Shown here in pieces: positions 20,343-27,567 of a DNA stretch of 33,582 bases; positions within the stretch are counted from its first letter, which is position 1; each line of letters starts with the position of its first letter. The position numbers and the translations under genes are program-made. The notes beneath the pieces were generated by a model, which saw nothing but the letters and a program-made list of their open reading frames with translations, made no database searches and was not told where the DNA came from. Origin of the DNA: Candidatus Pelagibacter sp. (GTDB lineage Bacteria; Pseudomonadota; Alphaproteobacteria; Pelagibacterales; Pelagibacteraceae). Where the stretch lies: positions 1 through 33,582 of the forward strand of contig JAPYTV010000002.1 in assembly GCA_029941985.1 (NCBI GenBank), in the 5' to 3' direction.

Positions 20343-21044
20343 ATGAGTAATATTAGATTATTTTTTTCAGAAAGTTTATCAATTAATTTAACCGCTAAAC
20401 TAGATAAATCACAATCTCATTATGTAAATAAAGTAATGAGAATTAAAGTAAATGAGGTTTTTTCTTTGTTTAACAGCAATGGTGAATGGGAAGCAAAGAT
20501 TTTAGAAATATCAAAAAGTATAGTTGAATTTAATGTTACAAAGCAATTAAGACAGAAAGAAAATACTAAAGAACTGTGGCTAGCTTTTTCACCTATTAAA
20601 TCTAATTATTTGAATTTTATGATTCAAAAAGCAACGGAATTGGGTGTAACTAAATTTTTACCTATTATTTTTGACAGAACAGTTGTTAGAAAAATAAATA
20701 AAGAACGAATTGAGAAAGTAATTATAGAAGCCGCAGAACAATCAAATCGAATTAACGTACCGTCGATTGAAGAACCACAAAATTTAAATTTTTTTTTGGA
20801 TAATAAAATTGACTTAATATTTACTGATTTAAATTCTAAAAATAAGAAATTAGATTTAGAAAAATTAACAGAAAATCCAACATGTATAATCATTGGTCCA
20901 GAAGGCGATTTTTCAGAAGCTGAGAGGGAACAAATTCTTTCTTTTAAAGGTGTTCAGCCAATTAGAATAAATGAAAATATATTAAGATCAGAAACCGCAG
21001 TTATTTCAGCAATTTCTATAATTAATTATTGTTTAGATTTATAA
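20343..21044 (+). CDS. rsmE: 16S rRNA (uracil(1498)-N3)-methyltransferase
   Basis: RsmE methylates U1498 of 16S rRNA. The 233-aa SPOUT protein shows SQSHYVNKVMRIKV near residue 23, LWLAFSPIKSNYLNFMIQKATELGVTKFLPI in the middle, and the C-terminal knot motifs IIGPEGDFSEAE and INENILRSETAVISAISI that bind SAM. Length and motifs are standard. It diverges from the haloacid dehalogenase across 17 bases, and its last six bases overlap the end of sco1 on the other strand. Confidence 0.96.
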   Translation: MSNIRLFFSESLSINLTAKLDKSQSHYVNKVMRIKVNEVFSLFNSNGEWEAKILEISKSIVEFNVTKQLRQKENTKELWLAFSPIKSNYLNFMIQKATELGVTKFLPIIFDRTVVRKINKERIEKVIIEAAEQSNRINVPSIEEPQNLNFFLDNKIDLIFTDLNSKNKKLDLEKLTENPTCIIIGPEGDFSEAEREQILSFKGVQPIRINENILRSETAVISAISIINYCLDL

Positions 21045-21626
21045 ATATTTCTTAACTATCTTAAAAATATTATCTAAATTTTCATGATGACTAATACGAT
21101 CAATGTATTTTCCATTATCAAGTAGAAGTATCGAAGAACTATGGTTAATTAAGTAACTGCCATCTTCATTAAAAATTTTTTCACTTAAGACACCCCAAGA
21201 TTTTGAAAGTAAAAATACTTTTTCTGGATCACCTGTTATTCCATAAATTTCATTTTTAAATGAATCCAGATAATTTTTAATTATTTCAGGGCTATCTCTT
21301 TCAGGATCAATACTTACAAAATAAACTTTGAATTTTTCTTTTTTTACGTTATCTAATTTTTCAATAACTTCATCTAGATTAGCTAAGGTCAGTGGACATA
21401 CATCAGGGCAGTTTGTAAAACCAAAAAAAATGGCAGTTAATGACCCTTGAAAAGATTTTTCTGTTACTGGGTTATTATTTACATCTTTTAATATAAATGT
21501 AGAACCAGTATACGATGCGACAATATCCTCTTTTTTTTCTTGTACCGATAATACAATAGGTAGCATAATAAATATAAAAATTCCTAAGCAACCTCCCAGT
21601 ATCGTAATTGAAGTCTTTAATTTCAT
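21039..21626 (-). CDS. SCO1/SenC copper chaperone for cytochrome c oxidase
   Basis: The 195-aa protein has one N-terminal membrane anchor (about residues 8-27) and a periplasmic thioredoxin-like domain. The copper-binding motif is FGFTNCPDVCPL with Cys73 and Cys77, and the third ligand is the His in YLINHSSSILLLD. VYFVSIDPERDSPEIIKNYL is also typical. Sco proteins help build the CuA centre of subunit II. It sits head-to-head with a subunit III-like gene and close to the main cox genes, which fits that role. I see no Cox11/CtaG in the window, so Sco may be the main copper insertion factor encoded here. Confidence 0.95.
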   Translation of the reverse strand: MKLKTSITILGGCLGIFIFIMLPIVLSVQEKKEDIVASYTGSTFILKDVNNNPVTEKSFQGSLTAIFFGFTNCPDVCPLTLANLDEVIEKLDNVKKEKFKVYFVSIDPERDSPEIIKNYLDSFKNEIYGITGDPEKVFLLSKSWGVLSEKIFNEDGSYLINHSSSILLLDNGKYIDRISHHENLDNIFKIVKKYL

Positions 21627-21658: not shown

Positions 21659-22339
21659 ATGTCTAAATTTTTTAAAAACCTTTTTGGCGCACTTTCCGAT
21701 AAACCTTGGGATAAAGAGCAGATGGCAATTGACAATTATCATCAAGGTAAAACATTTGATATTTCAAACCAAACATCAGCAGTTATAGTAATTTTTGGAG
21801 TAAGCACTGTATTGTTTTCTTTAGTAGTCACGGGTTATCTTTATAGCGTTCCTGTAGGCCAAGACACTAGCTATTTATTAAAACCAAATTTATTATGGTT
21901 AAATACTTTAGTTTTATTATTTGTCACTTATTTTTTTAACAAAGTTACAAAAAGCTTAAAAAAAAATAATACAGATAATGTTAAAAATAACTTAATTATA
22001 GTTGGATTTCTAAGTTATGTATTTTTGTTTGGACAATTATTTTTTTGGCTGCAATTGATGAAAAGTGGAAATTACGTTTCTACAAATAATTATTTTTCAT
22101 CTTTTTATATTTTCACTGCACTTCATGGACTTCATTTGCTAGGTGGATTATTTTTTTGGGGAATAGTTTTTTCTAAAGTTCGCAAAGCTGAACAAACACA
22201 AATCATAAGTCAGAAAAAAAGTATAGAAGCTTTATCTCTTTATTGGACTTTTTTGTTAATTGTTTGGGTTATGTTTTTTTTAATTATGTATGTTTTTAAT
22301 GATACCGTAGTTGCTTGGTGTCGAGCTTTGCTTAGCTAA
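21659..22339 (+). CDS. Cytochrome c oxidase subunit III-like protein, five-helix form
   Basis: The 226-aa protein is a heme-copper oxidase subunit III family member. About five hydrophobic helices are visible (near 39-62, 75-95, 109-133, 145-170, 190-212), like CyoC or NorE-type forms and unlike the seven-helix CoxC at 25340. The block FTALHGLHLLGGLFFWGIVF corresponds to ITGFHGTHVSIGVIFLF of CoxC, and LSLYWTFLLIVWVMFFLIMY to LGLYWHFVDLVWVFIFAFFY, with His-Phe-Val-Asp replaced by Thr-Phe-Leu-Leu. It is divergent from sco1 across 32 bases (TATATT-rich). It may be an extra oxidase subunit or assembly factor. Confidence 0.85.
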   Translation: MSKFFKNLFGALSDKPWDKEQMAIDNYHQGKTFDISNQTSAVIVIFGVSTVLFSLVVTGYLYSVPVGQDTSYLLKPNLLWLNTLVLLFVTYFFNKVTKSLKKNNTDNVKNNLIIVGFLSYVFLFGQLFFWLQLMKSGNYVSTNNYFSSFYIFTALHGLHLLGGLFFWGIVFSKVRKAEQTQIISQKKSIEALSLYWTFLLIVWVMFFLIMYVFNDTVVAWCRALLS

Positions 22340-22344
22340 ATATT

Positions 22345-22536
22345 TTAAAGAAATAACATTAAAATAGCACCAACTACGATTATAAGAACTAATAAAATAT
22401 TTACAGATTTTAAATATTTTTTTATTTCAGGACTTATTTTTTTTTTTGAAAATAATCCTGCACCTAATGATATTACAATAAAAAAGAGAAATACTAATGC
22501 AAGTATAACTATAAAAATTCCAAATTTTCCTAGCAT
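22345..22536 (-). CDS. 63-aa twin transmembrane helix protein inside the cox island
   Basis: This small ORF fills the space between the subunit III-like gene and coxB, on the opposite strand. It has helix 1 at about residues 6-28, a basic linker FSKKKISPEIKKYLKSV and helix 2 at about 48-62. That architecture matches twin-transmembrane proteins (DUF2909) and HIG1-domain proteins seen near cytochrome oxidase genes in other bacteria. Sequence similarity to either is not clear enough by eye to assign. Its stop is five bases from the preceding convergent gene. The clean hairpin-membrane design and tight packing suggest a real gene, not an antisense artefact. Confidence 0.65.
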   Translation of the reverse strand: MLGKFGIFIVILALVFLFFIVISLGAGLFSKKKISPEIKKYLKSVNILLVLIIVVGAILMLFL

Positions 22537-22625
22537 ATTTGGATGGTTATATAGGCTTAATAGACAATTTATTAAGACATTTTGTCTCTAGATTATATGT
22601 ATATTTCTTCTATAACTTCGAGAAT

Positions 22626-23468
22626 ATGCACGCAGGTTTTATTTTTTTAGCAGTAATTGTTGGTTCAGTGCTGTTCCATATTTTTACTCCATGGTGGTGG
22701 ACGGACATAGCTTCAAATTGGGGAGCAATGGATGATACAATCAATTTAACTTTTTGGATTGGTGGTGGAGTATTTATCTTAGTTTGCTTATTTATGGTGT
22801 ACTGTGTTTTCAAGTTCTCTTATAAAGAAGGTCGTAAAGTTGAATATAAACCTGAAGATCATAAATTAGAAAAAATATTAACTATTGCAACTACCATAGG
22901 AATTATTGCTCTTTTGGCACCAGGGCTTATAGTTTATAAAAATTATATTGATACTCCAAAAAATGCATTGCACGTTGAAGTGAATGCTTGGCAATGGGGA
23001 TGGCAATATAGGTTGCCAGGAGAAGATGGAATATTAGGTACGGCTCAAGTTGCAAAAATTAGTGATGATAATCCTTTTGGAATAAATTTAGATGACCCAA
23101 ATGGAAAAGATGATATTTTGATTCAAAGTGATGAACTTCACTTAAAAACAGATAAACCAGTAAAAATTTTATTAAGATCACTTGATGTTTTGCATAATTT
23201 TTATGTTCCACAATTTAGAGCAAAAATGGATGCTATTCCGGGGATAATTAGTTATTATTGGTTTGAACCAAATAAAGTTGGAGAATATGAAGTTCTTTGT
23301 GCCGAATACTGTGGAGTAGGACACTACGGTATGAGAGCGATAGTTATAGTTGATAGTGAAGAGAATTATGAAAACTGGATTAATGAACAGGAAACTTTTT
23401 CAAGTTTAATAGCTAAACAGGATAATAACAAATTAAAAACAACAAGAATTGCAAAAAATAATAATTAA
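22626..23468 (+). CDS. coxB: Cytochrome c oxidase subunit II (CuA)
   Basis: Subunit II takes electrons from cytochrome c through its CuA centre. The CuA ligands are complete: the His in SLDVLHNFYVPQF and CAEYCGVGHYGM (C-x3-C-x3-H-x2-M). The electron entry segment is VNAWQWGWQYRLPG. Three N-terminal hydrophobic segments are seen, the first ending in HIFTPWWWTDIASNWG, so this is the PWWW-type subunit II and not the common two-helix form. The ORF track starts at TTG 22539, adding 29 residues unlike any subunit II I know. I prefer ATG 22626 (280 aa), which leaves about 89 bases for the promoters of this gene and the divergent small gene. The start is uncertain. Confidence 0.9.
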   Translation: MHAGFIFLAVIVGSVLFHIFTPWWWTDIASNWGAMDDTINLTFWIGGGVFILVCLFMVYCVFKFSYKEGRKVEYKPEDHKLEKILTIATTIGIIALLAPGLIVYKNYIDTPKNALHVEVNAWQWGWQYRLPGEDGILGTAQVAKISDDNPFGINLDDPNGKDDILIQSDELHLKTDKPVKILLRSLDVLHNFYVPQFRAKMDAIPGIISYYWFEPNKVGEYEVLCAEYCGVGHYGMRAIVIVDSEENYENWINEQETFSSLIAKQDNNKLKTTRIAKNNN

Positions 23469-23485
23469 AATAATATAAGGATAAT

Positions 23486-25324
23486 ATGCCAGACGAATAT
23501 AATCAGAAAAATACTCCTCTTGAAGCCCAGTCTTCAGAAACAATGTCAGGATCTTCTGGTTCGACAACAGATATTGATTATGTAAGACCTGCGGAAGTTC
23601 CAGAACAAGATCTTTATCATGGTCATAGCTTTATTACTAAGTGGGTTTTTTGCCAAGATGCAAAAGTTATTGGAATACAATATTTTCTTACGGCAGTATT
23701 TACGGGAATTGTTGGTTTAATACTTTCATGGTTAATGCGTTTGCAATTAGGTTTTCCAGAATTAGTTCCATTCATTACAGCTGAACACTATTATCAGTTT
23801 GTAACTATGCACGGGATGATAATGATAGTCTACTTTTTAACAGCTTTATTTTTGGGAGGTTTTGGAAATTATTTAGTTCCTTTAATGGTTGGTGCAAGAG
23901 ATATGGTTTTTCCATATGTAAACATGGTTAGTTTTTGGATGTTCTTTATTGCAGTTTGTGTTCTTATGGCTAGCTTTTTTGTTCCAGGCGGACCAACCGG
24001 AGCAGGTTGGACACTCTATCCCCCACAAGCAATTTTACCAGGAAGTCCAGGCTCAGGAATAGGAATTATTTTGATGCTTGTATCTTTATCTTTATTTGTA
24101 ATTGGATTTACTATGGGCGGATTAAACTACTTAATTACAATTTTACAAGCTCGTACTAGAGGTATGACATTAATGAGAATGCCACTGACTATTTGGGGTA
24201 TTTTTACAGCAACTGCTTTAGCCATGTTAGCTTTTCCTGCTTTATTGGTTAGCTGCATAATGATGACTTTAGATAAAGTTTTAGAAACTAGCTTCTTTAT
24301 GCCAGCAATAATACAGGCAGGAGAGGTGCTAGATTATGGCGGGGGAAGTCCAGTTCTTTTCCAACATTTATTTTGGTTCTTTGGTCACCCCGAAGTTTAT
24401 ATTGTAGCTCTTCCTGCTTTTGGAATTGTTTCAGATTTAATATCAGTTCATGCTAGAAAAAATATTTTTGGATATCGAATGATGGTTTGGGCTATTGTCG
24501 GTATTGGAGCTTTAAGTTTCTTTGTATGGGCTCACCACATGTATGTAAGTGGTATGAATCCTTGGTTTGGGTTTTTCTTTGCAACAACAACACTTATTAT
24601 TGCAGTTCCAACTGCATTGAAAGTTTACAACTGGATAATAACATTATTTAAAGCAAATATAAGAATGAATACTGTAATGCTTTTTTGTTTAGGTTTTATT
24701 GTAACCTTTGTAAATGGAGGAATTACTGGAATTTTTTTAGGCAATGTTGCTGTAGATATTCCTTTGTCTGATACTTATTTTGTTATAGCTCATTTTCATA
24801 TGGTGATGGGTATTGCTCCACTTATGGTAATCATGGGAGCTGTTTATCATTGGTTTCCTTTAGTTACAGGAAGAATGCTAAATGAAAGGTTAGGTAAGTG
24901 GCATTTTTGGTTTACTTTTCTAGGAGCTTATTCAATTTATTTCCCAATGCATTATCTTGGCTTTATTGGAGTACCAAGAAGATATTTTGAAATGTATGAT
25001 AGTCCTTATGTGACTTCTGCTACTGGATTGAATGAATTTATAACTGTAGCAGCTTTAATTGTTGGTATTTCACAATTTATTTTTATTTATAATATTATAA
25101 CAAGTTTAAAAATGGGAAAACCAGCCGGAAAAAATCCTTGGAAAGCAAATTCTTTGGAGTGGTTAACTCATGAAGTGCCACCAACTCATGGTAACTGGGG
25201 AGAAAATTTGCCAGTTGTTCATAGATGGCCTTATGATTTTAACGTTCCAGGAGCAAAAGAAGATTATATAACTCAAACAACAGCACCAAGCGAAGTTTTA
25301 GGTGCCGAGGTTGAAAAAACTTAA
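23486..25324 (+). CDS. coxA: Cytochrome c oxidase subunit I (aa3-type, A1)
   Basis: CoxA is the catalytic subunit, reducing oxygen at the heme a3-CuB site and pumping protons. The 612-aa protein has about 12 helices and an N-terminal hydrophilic extension of about 55 residues. Key residues: a heme a His in YQFVTMHGMIMI; the D-channel entry Asp in PLMVGARDMVFPY; CuB His, cross-linked Tyr and D-channel Glu in WFFGHPEVYIVALPAFG; the His pair in WAHHMYVSGM; and heme His ligands in HFHMVMG. The Glu in GHPEVY marks an A1-type oxidase. An AAGG Shine-Dalgarno precedes the ATG, 17 bases after coxB. Confidence 0.98.
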   Translation: MPDEYNQKNTPLEAQSSETMSGSSGSTTDIDYVRPAEVPEQDLYHGHSFITKWVFCQDAKVIGIQYFLTAVFTGIVGLILSWLMRLQLGFPELVPFITAEHYYQFVTMHGMIMIVYFLTALFLGGFGNYLVPLMVGARDMVFPYVNMVSFWMFFIAVCVLMASFFVPGGPTGAGWTLYPPQAILPGSPGSGIGIILMLVSLSLFVIGFTMGGLNYLITILQARTRGMTLMRMPLTIWGIFTATALAMLAFPALLVSCIMMTLDKVLETSFFMPAIIQAGEVLDYGGGSPVLFQHLFWFFGHPEVYIVALPAFGIVSDLISVHARKNIFGYRMMVWAIVGIGALSFFVWAHHMYVSGMNPWFGFFFATTTLIIAVPTALKVYNWIITLFKANIRMNTVMLFCLGFIVTFVNGGITGIFLGNVAVDIPLSDTYFVIAHFHMVMGIAPLMVIMGAVYHWFPLVTGRMLNERLGKWHFWFTFLGAYSIYFPMHYLGFIGVPRRYFEMYDSPYVTSATGLNEFITVAALIVGISQFIFIYNIITSLKMGKPAGKNPWKANSLEWLTHEVPPTHGNWGENLPVVHRWPYDFNVPGAKEDYITQTTAPSEVLGAEVEKT

Positions 25325-25339
25325 TTAATTAAATATTAA

Positions 25340-26044
25340 ATGTCTGATCATACTTTAGATAAATTGCCAGGTGGTTACAAAGGTATGGCTGCAGATATGA
25401 GCTCAGATCAAACTGCGTTTAAAGGTGTCCAGTGGGGCAAAACTATGATGTGGATTTTTCTACTAAGTGATACTTTTATATTTAGCTGTTTTTTAATTTC
25501 ATATATGAAAGGAAGAGCTTCAACAGTAGTAGATTGGCCAAATACAAGTGAAGTTTTTTCATTGCACGTTGGTGATGTGCCTGTTCCATTATTATTAATT
25601 GCAATTATGACGTTTGTTTTGATCACAAGCAGTGGAACTATGGCACTTGCTGTTAAATATGGCTATGAAAGAAACAGAAAAATGTGCGCATGGCTAATAT
25701 TAGCTACAGCAATAGGTGGACTTACTTTTGTTGGGATGCAAGCATTTGAATGGTCAAAACTAATACATGAAGGTGTTAGACCTTGGGAAAATCCATTTGG
25801 AGCTAAACAGTTTGGTTCTTTCTTTTTTATGATTACAGGATTTCACGGAACTCACGTTTCAATTGGTGTGATTTTTTTATTTATTTTTGCAAGAAAAACT
25901 TTTAGAGGTGATTTTGATACTGGTAAACGAGGGTTTTTTACAACAATGAAATCAGATTATGTAGCAATAGAGATTTTAGGTCTTTATTGGCACTTTGTTG
26001 ATTTGGTGTGGGTATTTATATTTGCTTTCTTTTATTTATGGTAA
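25340..26044 (+). CDS. coxC: Cytochrome c oxidase subunit III
   Basis: The 234-aa protein is the canonical subunit III of this operon. It has several hydrophobic helices; the first is in KTMMWIFLLSDTFIFSCFLISY, with the conserved FLLSD-type motif. Later blocks are GMQAFEWSKLI, FFMITGFHGTHVSIGVIFLF, and the C-terminal LGLYWHFVDLVWVFIFAFFYLW, all diagnostic. It lies 15 bases after coxA and eight before the subunit IV gene, so the order is coxB-coxA-coxC-cox4. A second, shorter subunit III relative is at 21659. Confidence 0.96.
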   Translation: MSDHTLDKLPGGYKGMAADMSSDQTAFKGVQWGKTMMWIFLLSDTFIFSCFLISYMKGRASTVVDWPNTSEVFSLHVGDVPVPLLLIAIMTFVLITSSGTMALAVKYGYERNRKMCAWLILATAIGGLTFVGMQAFEWSKLIHEGVRPWENPFGAKQFGSFFFMITGFHGTHVSIGVIFLFIFARKTFRGDFDTGKRGFFTTMKSDYVAIEILGLYWHFVDLVWVFIFAFFYLW

Positions 26045-26052
26045 ACTAATTT

Positions 26053-26388
26053 ATGGACGAGACACAAAACAAAGCACAAGGAAGTACACATAAGATTGGA
26101 ATATATCTTTGGATCTGGGGCCTATTATTTGTGCTTAGTTTCTGCTCTTACATGGTTGATTGGTTTGCTTTTCAAGGATTATTGAGATGGTCATTAATTG
26201 TGATATTTATGCTTCTTAAAGCTGGCTTAATAATGGCTTTCTTTATGCATTTATTTTGGGAACGTTATGCATTAGTTAATGTTTTATTATGGCCAATGAC
26301 AGCAATAGCATGCTTTATTGTACTTATGGCAGCAGAAGCACAATATACTGTTTTTACTAGAGCGTTTTATTTTTTTGTAGGAGGATAA
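26053..26388 (+). CDS. Cytochrome c oxidase subunit IV (prokaryotic type)
   Basis: The 111-aa membrane protein has three hydrophobic helices. The middle block WSLIVIFMLLKAGLIMAFFMHLFWER matches the prokaryotic COX4 family (CyoD/CtaF-like), including the Lys followed by FFMHL. This subunit stabilises the oxidase. Its C-terminal codons for Gly-Gly (GGAGGA) form the Shine-Dalgarno of the next gene, whose start lies four bases after this stop, so translation of the two is tightly linked. Confidence 0.9.
   Translation: MDETQNKAQGSTHKIGIYLWIWGLLFVLSFCSYMVDWFAFQGLLRWSLIVIFMLLKAGLIMAFFMHLFWERYALVNVLLWPMTAIACFIVLMAAEAQYTVFTRAFYFFVGG
26379..26384 (+). promoter_or_regulatory. Full-consensus Shine-Dalgarno AGGAGG inside the end of the subunit IV gene
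   Basis: AGGAGG lies eight bases before ATG 26393 and encodes the last residues of the preceding gene. Most genes here have weak or no Shine-Dalgarno sequences. Comparable ones precede groEL and atpE, both very highly expressed genes. This decides the start of the unknown 87-aa gene and suggests it is made in quantity. Confidence 0.8.
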
Positions 26389-26392
26389 TTTA

Positions 26393-26656
26393 ATGGATGG
26401 ATATACTGTACTTTATGGAGCTTTAATATTTTTTGGTTTTTTTATTTATGTGACCTGGTTTGGAACTACCATAAAAATTGAAAGTCAAAAAGAAGAAGGT
26501 CCTAATATAAAAATTAATCCTTACGATAATCTGCCAACACATAGAAAATTTATTGATAAAAAAAATAAACAAGTAGGAATTTTTGATTTAGGGAATCATA
26601 TTCTTATTATTGGAATGGTACTGTTGGTGATTTTCGTTTCAATAAATGCAGGTTAG
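26393..26656 (+). CDS. Unknown 87-aa membrane protein in the cytochrome oxidase operon
   Basis: I do not recognise this protein. It has an N-terminal helix (about 6-23, ALIFFGFFIYVTWFG), a charged middle of about 40 residues with KINPYDNLPTHRKF, and a C-terminal helix (about 68-85, ILIIGMVLLVIFVSINAG). It sits between the subunit IV gene and ctaB with gaps of four and two bases, has the strongest Shine-Dalgarno of the operon, and must be cotranscribed with coxA. An accessory oxidase subunit, a CcoQ-like stabiliser or a heme-delivery partner of CtaB are all possible; none is shown by sequence. Confidence 0.85.
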   Translation: MDGYTVLYGALIFFGFFIYVTWFGTTIKIESQKEEGPNIKINPYDNLPTHRKFIDKKNKQVGIFDLGNHILIIGMVLLVIFVSINAG

Positions 26657-26658
26657 TT

Positions 26659-27567
26659 TTGCCTAGTATATTAAAAAAAATAAACATTCAAATAGATTTG
26701 GGTAGTTATATTAAATCTTTATATTTACTCATGAAACCAAGAGTAATGTCACTTGTTATATTTACATGTGCGGTTGGTTTTTTAACTTCAAATTCAAGCA
26801 CAAGCATTACGGATGCAATGATTGGTATATCTTTAGTAGCTTTAGGAGCGGGTGCAGCAGGATGTTTAAATATGTGGTATGAGTCAGATTTAGACGCACT
26901 GATGACAAGAACATGCTTAAGACCAATTCCAACAGGAAAAATTAATAGAAAACAAGCTCTTATTTTTGGAATATTATTATCAGTTATTTCAGTTGGAGCT
27001 TTAAATTATTTTTCAAATGTTTTGTCTGCATCCTTATTATTATTTACAATTTTTTTTTATTTGTTTGTTTATACAATTTGGTTAAAAAGAAAAACGCCAC
27101 AAAACATTGTTATAGGTGGAGCTGCAGGAGCATTACCACCAGTTATAGGATGGACTATAGCTACTAATGCAATTAGTCTAGAACCACTAACTTTATTTTT
27201 TATAATTTTTTTTTGGACACCTTCACACTTTTGGGCATTAAGTTTATATAAAGCTGACGATTATAAGAAAGCAAAAATACCAATGTTGCCTTTAACAGAT
27301 GGTATTGAAAAAACAAAAGTATATATTTTTATATATTCTTTACTAATGTTACCAGTTATAGTTTTTCCATATTTAATTAACTTTTCAGGTTTAACCTACT
27401 TGATACCAGCATTAATTCTTACAATTTACTATAATGCTATTTGTTATGATCTATATAAATACAAGAAAAATAAATTTGATTTAAAGAAAGCTAAAAAAGT
27501 CTTTGGTTATTCGATTTTATATTTATTTTTAATTTTTGTATTATTTTTAATTGATAATTTAATTTAA
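26659..27567 (+). CDS. ctaB: Heme O synthase (protoheme IX farnesyltransferase)
   Basis: CtaB farnesylates heme b to heme o, the precursor of heme a for the oxidase. The 302-aa UbiA-superfamily protein has many hydrophobic helices. The start region LMKPRVMSLVIFTCAVGFL is diagnostic, as is the active site NMWYESDLDALMTRTCLRPIPTG, in which the first Asp of the usual NxxxD motif is Glu. Later blocks are GGAAGALPPVIGW and FFWTPSHFWALSLY. The start is TTG 26659, two bases after the preceding stop; the next ATG (26731) would begin directly at the conserved KPRV and remove the usual N-terminus. Confidence 0.95.
   Translation: MPSILKKINIQIDLGSYIKSLYLLMKPRVMSLVIFTCAVGFLTSNSSTSITDAMIGISLVALGAGAAGCLNMWYESDLDALMTRTCLRPIPTGKINRKQALIFGILLSVISVGALNYFSNVLSASLLLFTIFFYLFVYTIWLKRKTPQNIVIGGAAGALPPVIGWTIATNAISLEPLTLFFIIFFWTPSHFWALSLYKADDYKKAKIPMLPLTDGIEKTKVYIFIYSLLMLPVIVFPYLINFSGLTYLIPALILTIYYNAICYDLYKYKKNKFDLKKAKKVFGYSILYLFLIFVLFLIDNLI

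Follow-up and report, generated by a model that had tools for sequence, protein, structure and literature searches.

The window analysed here is the whole 33,582-nucleotide stretch of contig JAPYTV010000002.1 from an incomplete genome of Candidatus Pelagibacter sp. (Pelagibacteraceae; SAR11). It carries a cytochrome c oxidase operon in which an open reading frame of 87 amino acids, here called X, occupies positions 26393-26656 of the forward strand. As the preliminary description had stated, X follows cox4, which ends at 26388, after four bases and precedes ctaB, which starts at 26659, by two. The features of the locus are the following.

21039..21626, reverse strand: gene for an SCO1/SenC-like copper protein, adjoining the operon (read from the sequence; position kept in relatives)
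21659..22339, forward strand: cox3a, second COX3 homologue, CyoC-like (PF00510)
22626..23468, forward strand: coxB, subunit II (PF00116)
23486..25324, forward strand: coxA, subunit I, 612 amino acids (PF00115)
25340..26044, forward strand: cox3b, COX3 homologue (PF00510)
26053..26388, forward strand: cox4, subunit IV (PF03626, COX4_pro)
26379..26384, forward strand: Shine-Dalgarno sequence AGGAGG of X, inside the final cox4 codons (Val-Gly-Gly-stop)
26393..26656, forward strand: X, two-helix membrane protein, 87 amino acids (translation, dN/dS, AlphaFold)
26405..26464, forward strand: first transmembrane helix of X, approximate, residues 5-24 (sequence; model helix 3-34)
26465..26587, forward strand: positive loop of X with the conserved NPYDxxP..RxxIDKKN, probably cytoplasmic
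26588..26647, forward strand: second transmembrane helix of X, approximate, residues 66-85, with the conserved FDLGNH at its start
26659..27567, forward strand: ctaB, heme O synthase, TTG start (TIGR01473)

The longest coxB reading frame begins at a TTG at 22539, overlapping the divergent upstream space; the ATG at 22626 is the more likely start and is supported by relatives. Between cox3a and coxB, a 63-residue two-helix reading frame without a Pfam match lies on the reverse strand (22345-22536). Most main-lineage loci retain it, and a relative with 39% identity is found in genus g9, away from the oxidase (L148:332-523). Judged by eye, it is possibly of the HIG1/DUF2909 kind. Some SAR11 genomes have a DUF1467 gene in antisense orientation between ctaB and thrC (for example at L150:1861-2106, forward strand).

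A COX3 doublet within the COX cluster is described as the mark of the A1 type, subtype a-III (PMC6431628). The window operon contains coxB, coxA, COX4 and such a doublet, with both cox3a and cox3b matching PF00510, and by this gene content its oxidase classifies as A1 subtype a-III and not as the usual SAR11 type b. In a CoxA tree calculated without a Bradyrhizobium reference, 28 a-III rows stand apart from type b with a support of 100/100, the a-III label itself resting on the COX3 doublet. The 16 a-III sequences from alphaproteobacteria other than SAR11 group together, apart from those of SAR11, in a tree that does not fix the root inside a-III. SAR11 bacteria have been said to possess type b operons only (PMC4013037), and the a-III type has already been reported for Pelagibacterales from oxygen minimum zones or close to them (PMC8879329). 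We found an a-III CoxA in 24 of 197 Pelagibacterales genomes, all belonging to a single family (f1), and a COX4 matching a-III in 23 genomes of this sample; most of the others carry the ordinary type (about 41% identity; 41% for the CoxA of the window against the ordinary SAR11 CoxA). Among the Pelagibacteraceae genomes sampled, roughly one in six has the a-III oxidase, which joins or replaces the usual oxidase there. An ordinary type-b CoxA accompanies it only in genomes G195 and G179, which have both types side by side. No type-b CoxA was found in the other 22 of the 24 genomes, a count that includes the incomplete genome of the window; since these show a-III alone, the a-III oxidase has mostly replaced the ordinary one.

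X is a real protein gene under purifying selection, as indicated by low dN/dS values (0.015-0.22 in 13 pairs; two deeper pairs were saturated at synonymous sites). The protein has two hydrophobic helices, separated by a loop of some 38 residues that carries the motif NPYDxxP..RxxIDKKN..G.FDLGNH. The mean net charge of this loop is +2.85 over 80 sequences, so that the positive-inside rule would place the loop on the cytoplasmic side of the membrane and the two termini on the periplasmic side. The AlphaFold model is a hairpin with helices at residues 3-34 and 49-85 (pLDDT 72, pTM 0.40). Cysteine is found in none of the 80 sequences, and a single histidine is conserved. Comparison of the window with genome G179 gives 26% identity for X, against 77% for CoxA.

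The ribosome-binding site of X had been singled out as a full-consensus site and the best of the operon, and our calculations bear this out. The AGGAGG lies eight bases upstream of the ATG and, with a generic anti-Shine-Dalgarno sequence, forms the strongest duplex among the 36 genes of the window (−10.2 kcal/mol); the value for groEL is −8.8, and that of the next best gene of the oxidase operon, coxA, is −4.9. The site overlaps the end of cox4, GTA GGA GGA TAA. Either AGGAGG or GGAGG precedes X in 62 of 80 distinct genes, with a mean energy of about −10; the site in the window is therefore no accident of one genome. Moreover, nearly every cox4 directly preceding X ends in or near Gly-Gly, compared with few of those that X does not follow, and the need for this Shine-Dalgarno sequence seems to have shaped the C-terminal end of cox4. 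The site is absent where X is located differently, as in g9 and G179.

No family had been recognised for X, and the searches agree with this: nothing significant was obtained in Pfam, NCBIfam or PDB sequence searches. For profile work we used a set of 42 X sequences less than 90% identical to each other. A Pfam scan of this set gave nothing for the set as a whole; the lowest single E value (0.0023) came from one member with a Mycoplasma family and is not shared by the others. A profile search of PDB sequences returned only SEC63 matches at an E value of about 9, and Foldseek found no match in the PDB for the X model. The comparison with CcoQ, CtaG and small oxidase subunits, proposed along with the preliminary description, likewise yielded no significant match. 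X does not match PF03626, and hhalign gives a probability of 0.1-0.2% for X against cox4 and of at most 0.4% against type-b CoxC, cox3a or cox3b, so that X does not look like helices 1-2 of a split subunit III. We also considered whether X is a duplicate or fragment of cox4, cox3a, cox3b, CoxC, coxB, the 63-residue reading frame, SCO, SURF1, Cox11 or DUF1467; all of these profile comparisons were negative.

Small two-helix proteins of oxidase operons are known, namely the DUF2909 and HIG1/Rcf1 kinds. X resembles them in its size, its two helices and the location of its gene within or close to an oxidase operon, but it has its own 38-residue loop motif, and none of the 42 members matches HIG1/Rcf1 (PF04588) or DUF2909 (PF11137), the latter having been called COX4-like (PMC4013037). 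FixQ/CcoQ (PF05545) of the cbb3 oxidases is, like X, a small noncatalytic membrane protein encoded beside oxidase genes. However, CcoQ has one helix and X has two, and only one of the 42 members gives a match, at a nonsignificant E value of 0.042. CtaG/Cox11 (PF04442) and Caa3_CtaG (PF09678) are also membrane proteins encoded with oxidases, but X matches neither, contains no CFC motif and no cysteine, and occurs both with and without Cox11. As far as these tools show, X constitutes an undescribed family; nor is it described in the literature that we met on SAR11 oxidase variants, a partial survey. Small oxidase subunits confined to one lineage are already known, however, and X would make for a variation on the known a-III oxidase.

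X was recognised in 22 of the 24 a-III Pelagibacterales genomes. The 23rd, G179, contains a divergent 81-residue reading frame beside cox4 (L147:7064-7309), which scores an E value of 1.2e-7 among 110 locus reading frames with a profile built without the G179 sequence. In the 24th (G009) the contig ends inside coxA, so that X cannot be judged. No convincing X was found in the genomes without an a-III oxidase in the sample of 197 Pelagibacterales, about 160 of which have the ordinary oxidase. The order cox4-X-ctaB occurs in all 80 loci fetched from the genome_contigs collection (drawn from 184 confirmed matches). This order, whose conservation had been proposed as a check, is thus general in these SAR11 loci, but it is not the only one: in genus g9 X lies directly before coxB and far from ctaB, and X and cox4 are convergently oriented in G179. 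The a-III cluster of G179 (L147:6364-13046), with a CBS-domain gene and the divergent X, is situated between an ordinary coxA and ctaB-ctaG-coxC-surf1. In all three places X remains inside or beside the a-III cluster; it therefore goes with the oxidase rather than with a fixed location, which argues for a functional tie. The association of X with the a-III oxidase in SAR11 is well supported, and the assignment of X to the oxidase gene set holds in our sample even where X has moved.

Outside SAR11, the picture is different. Our sample of 385 alphaproteobacterial genomes includes about 22 with a COX4 of the a-III kind. The window operon shares coxB, coxA, two COX3 and COX4 with the a-III operons of these bacteria (the Bradyrhizobium coxMNOP kind; PMC6431628, PMC8879329), with identities of 47-58% for COX4 and about 69-75% for CoxA. 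Yet none of the 18 a-III loci fetched from other alphaproteobacteria contains an X-like reading frame, and class- and phylum-wide profile searches found X in the window's own genome only (a 23-residue partial match in genome G496, with an E value of 0.005 in the class-wide search, was disregarded). The same core operon thus exists elsewhere without X, which is therefore not obligatory for an a-III oxidase. X is best regarded as an addition made within the SAR11 family, restricted to Pelagibacteraceae; an ancestral part lost elsewhere is less likely. The view of X as a gene of the SAR11 oxidase operon consequently needs to be narrowed: it does belong to an oxidase operon, but one of the minority a-III type, the core of which is found elsewhere without it. 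Similarly, its absence from relatives that keep the operon, named beforehand as something that would refute the proposal, is seen outside the family, whereas inside the family X is present wherever it could be judged. Other genes adjoin a-III operons in these loci. A gene for a multi-helix membrane protein of the DUF2189 family (PF09955) does so in five of them (L165, L170, L174, L175 and L176), and in family f51, with genomes of 1.3-1.4 Mb, a reading frame directly follows cox4 in three (L172, L178 and L179), with a Sel1-repeat protein in the first two.

Genes for oxidase maturation were also compared. Cox11 (PF04442), present in 119 of 143 genomes of the family, is missing from 17 of the 21 nearly complete SAR11 genomes that have a-III alone; among the absentees listed, most are a-III genomes. 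In the four a-III-only genomes that keep Cox11, the matches do not extend over the N-terminal portion of the model. The remaining Cox11 copies that we read (L004 and L148) keep the CFC motif. This loss suggested that X might replace Cox11. Such a replacement is unlikely, since four f51 alphaproteobacteria with an a-III-type COX4 and without X are also without Cox11. Cox11 is likewise missing in G232, G243, G317 and the incomplete G585. Judging from these gene contents, it seems to be the a-III oxidase itself that is independent of Cox11. Caa3_CtaG gave no match over the cutoff in a-III SAR11 genomes. Nearly all genomes (26 of 28) encode a heme A synthase; in the genome of the window its gene lies elsewhere than in the operon. 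We also rejected, as poorly supported, X as a heme or copper carrier: it has no cysteine and one conserved histidine, and CtaA and CtaB are present. Of the structural or heme-delivery role first suggested for X, the structural or accessory part fits our results; heme delivery does not, given the residue content, the adjacent ctaB and the encoded heme A synthase. Finally, in genera g7 and g9 the a-III genes are accompanied by a gene for a small protein with one helix, in which the motif C[AS]VC[IV]S is conserved (L147:11812-11979, reverse; L148:8623-8796, forward; L149:3558-3731, reverse). A motif search did not find it in the window. It may serve oxidase assembly as a metal or thiol protein.

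What, then, would X do? We favour, with a probability of roughly 55%, an accessory subunit of the a-III aa3-type cytochrome c oxidase that is particular to the SAR11 lineage. The reasons are the selection on the gene, the association maintained through three gene orders, the strong and conserved Shine-Dalgarno sequence, and a product with two hydrophobic helices, no cysteine and one conserved histidine. Made in quantity through its strong ribosome-binding site, X would form a two-helix hairpin with periplasmic termini and a positive cytoplasmic loop, would probably pack on the exterior of the oxidase near the COX3 and COX4 subunits, and may stabilise or tune the complex. Several points speak against this reading: X has no homology to any known oxidase subunit, the a-III core does without the gene elsewhere, the model is moderate (pLDDT 72) and Foldseek returned nothing. 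In addition, the fast divergence of X relative to CoxA would suit an assembly factor equally well.

An assembly or maturation factor, acting transiently (for example by holding subunits or heme A insertion intermediates) and absent from the finished enzyme, is a possible alternative, to which we give about half the weight. The position of X directly before ctaB in the main lineage would agree with it, as would its lineage specificity and rapid evolution; moreover, the frequent absence of the CuB-insertion factor Cox11 from a-III-only SAR11 implies that maturation is altered there. However, the strongest Shine-Dalgarno sequence of the window suggests an amount nearer that of a subunit, X precedes coxB and is far from ctaB in g9, the protein offers no cysteine and a single conserved histidine, and the f51 genomes, which lack both Cox11 and X, argue that X is not what permits the loss of Cox11. 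It is unlikely that X instead links the a-III oxidase to another respiratory complex or to cytochrome c, working in the manner of Rcf1/HIG1 without being HIG1. X is a two-helix hairpin of similar size and is tied to an oxidase the core of which does without it, and the partner complexes of its lineage may differ from those of other a-III hosts; but there is no HIG1 match, and no tested result points to complex III. A function unrelated to the oxidase, with X merely carried in the operon, seems very improbable: the lack of homology to oxidase proteins and the existence of the same operon without X would allow it, but co-occurrence persists through three rearrangements, and X is not seen in about 160 relatives with the ordinary oxidase. 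We give hardly any credence to X being a distant MAPEG-like half protein, equivalent to the first helix and loop of MAPEG: our first X profile gave weak matches to proteins of family f2, confirmed as MAPEG (per-genome E value of 5.7e-4 at best), with an hhalign probability of 70% over 43 columns, but these matches are one orthologous set, about 0.1 such matches are expected by chance over 197 genomes (not significant after correction), the fuller X profile gave none in 385 genomes of the class, none of the 42 X sequences matches MAPEG in Pfam, and MAPEG has four helices.

Returning to the accessory subunit, a more speculative proposal, which we regard as rather doubtful, is that X arose in Pelagibacteraceae as a supernumerary subunit and helped the a-III enzyme to become the sole terminal oxidase of many SAR11 lineages, which then lost the type-b oxidase and Cox11.

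Few bacteria in the ocean are as abundant as SAR11, and much of the respiration there passes through their terminal oxidase. About one-sixth of the sampled Pelagibacteraceae have a second oxidase type that has mostly replaced the standard one; X accompanies it in every complete locus, and Cox11 is usually missing. Should X prove to be a subunit, it would represent a component that a respiratory enzyme has gained in one lineage, although the genomes concerned are extremely streamlined. It would then also offer a small and defined starting point for studying why one oxidase gave way to another.
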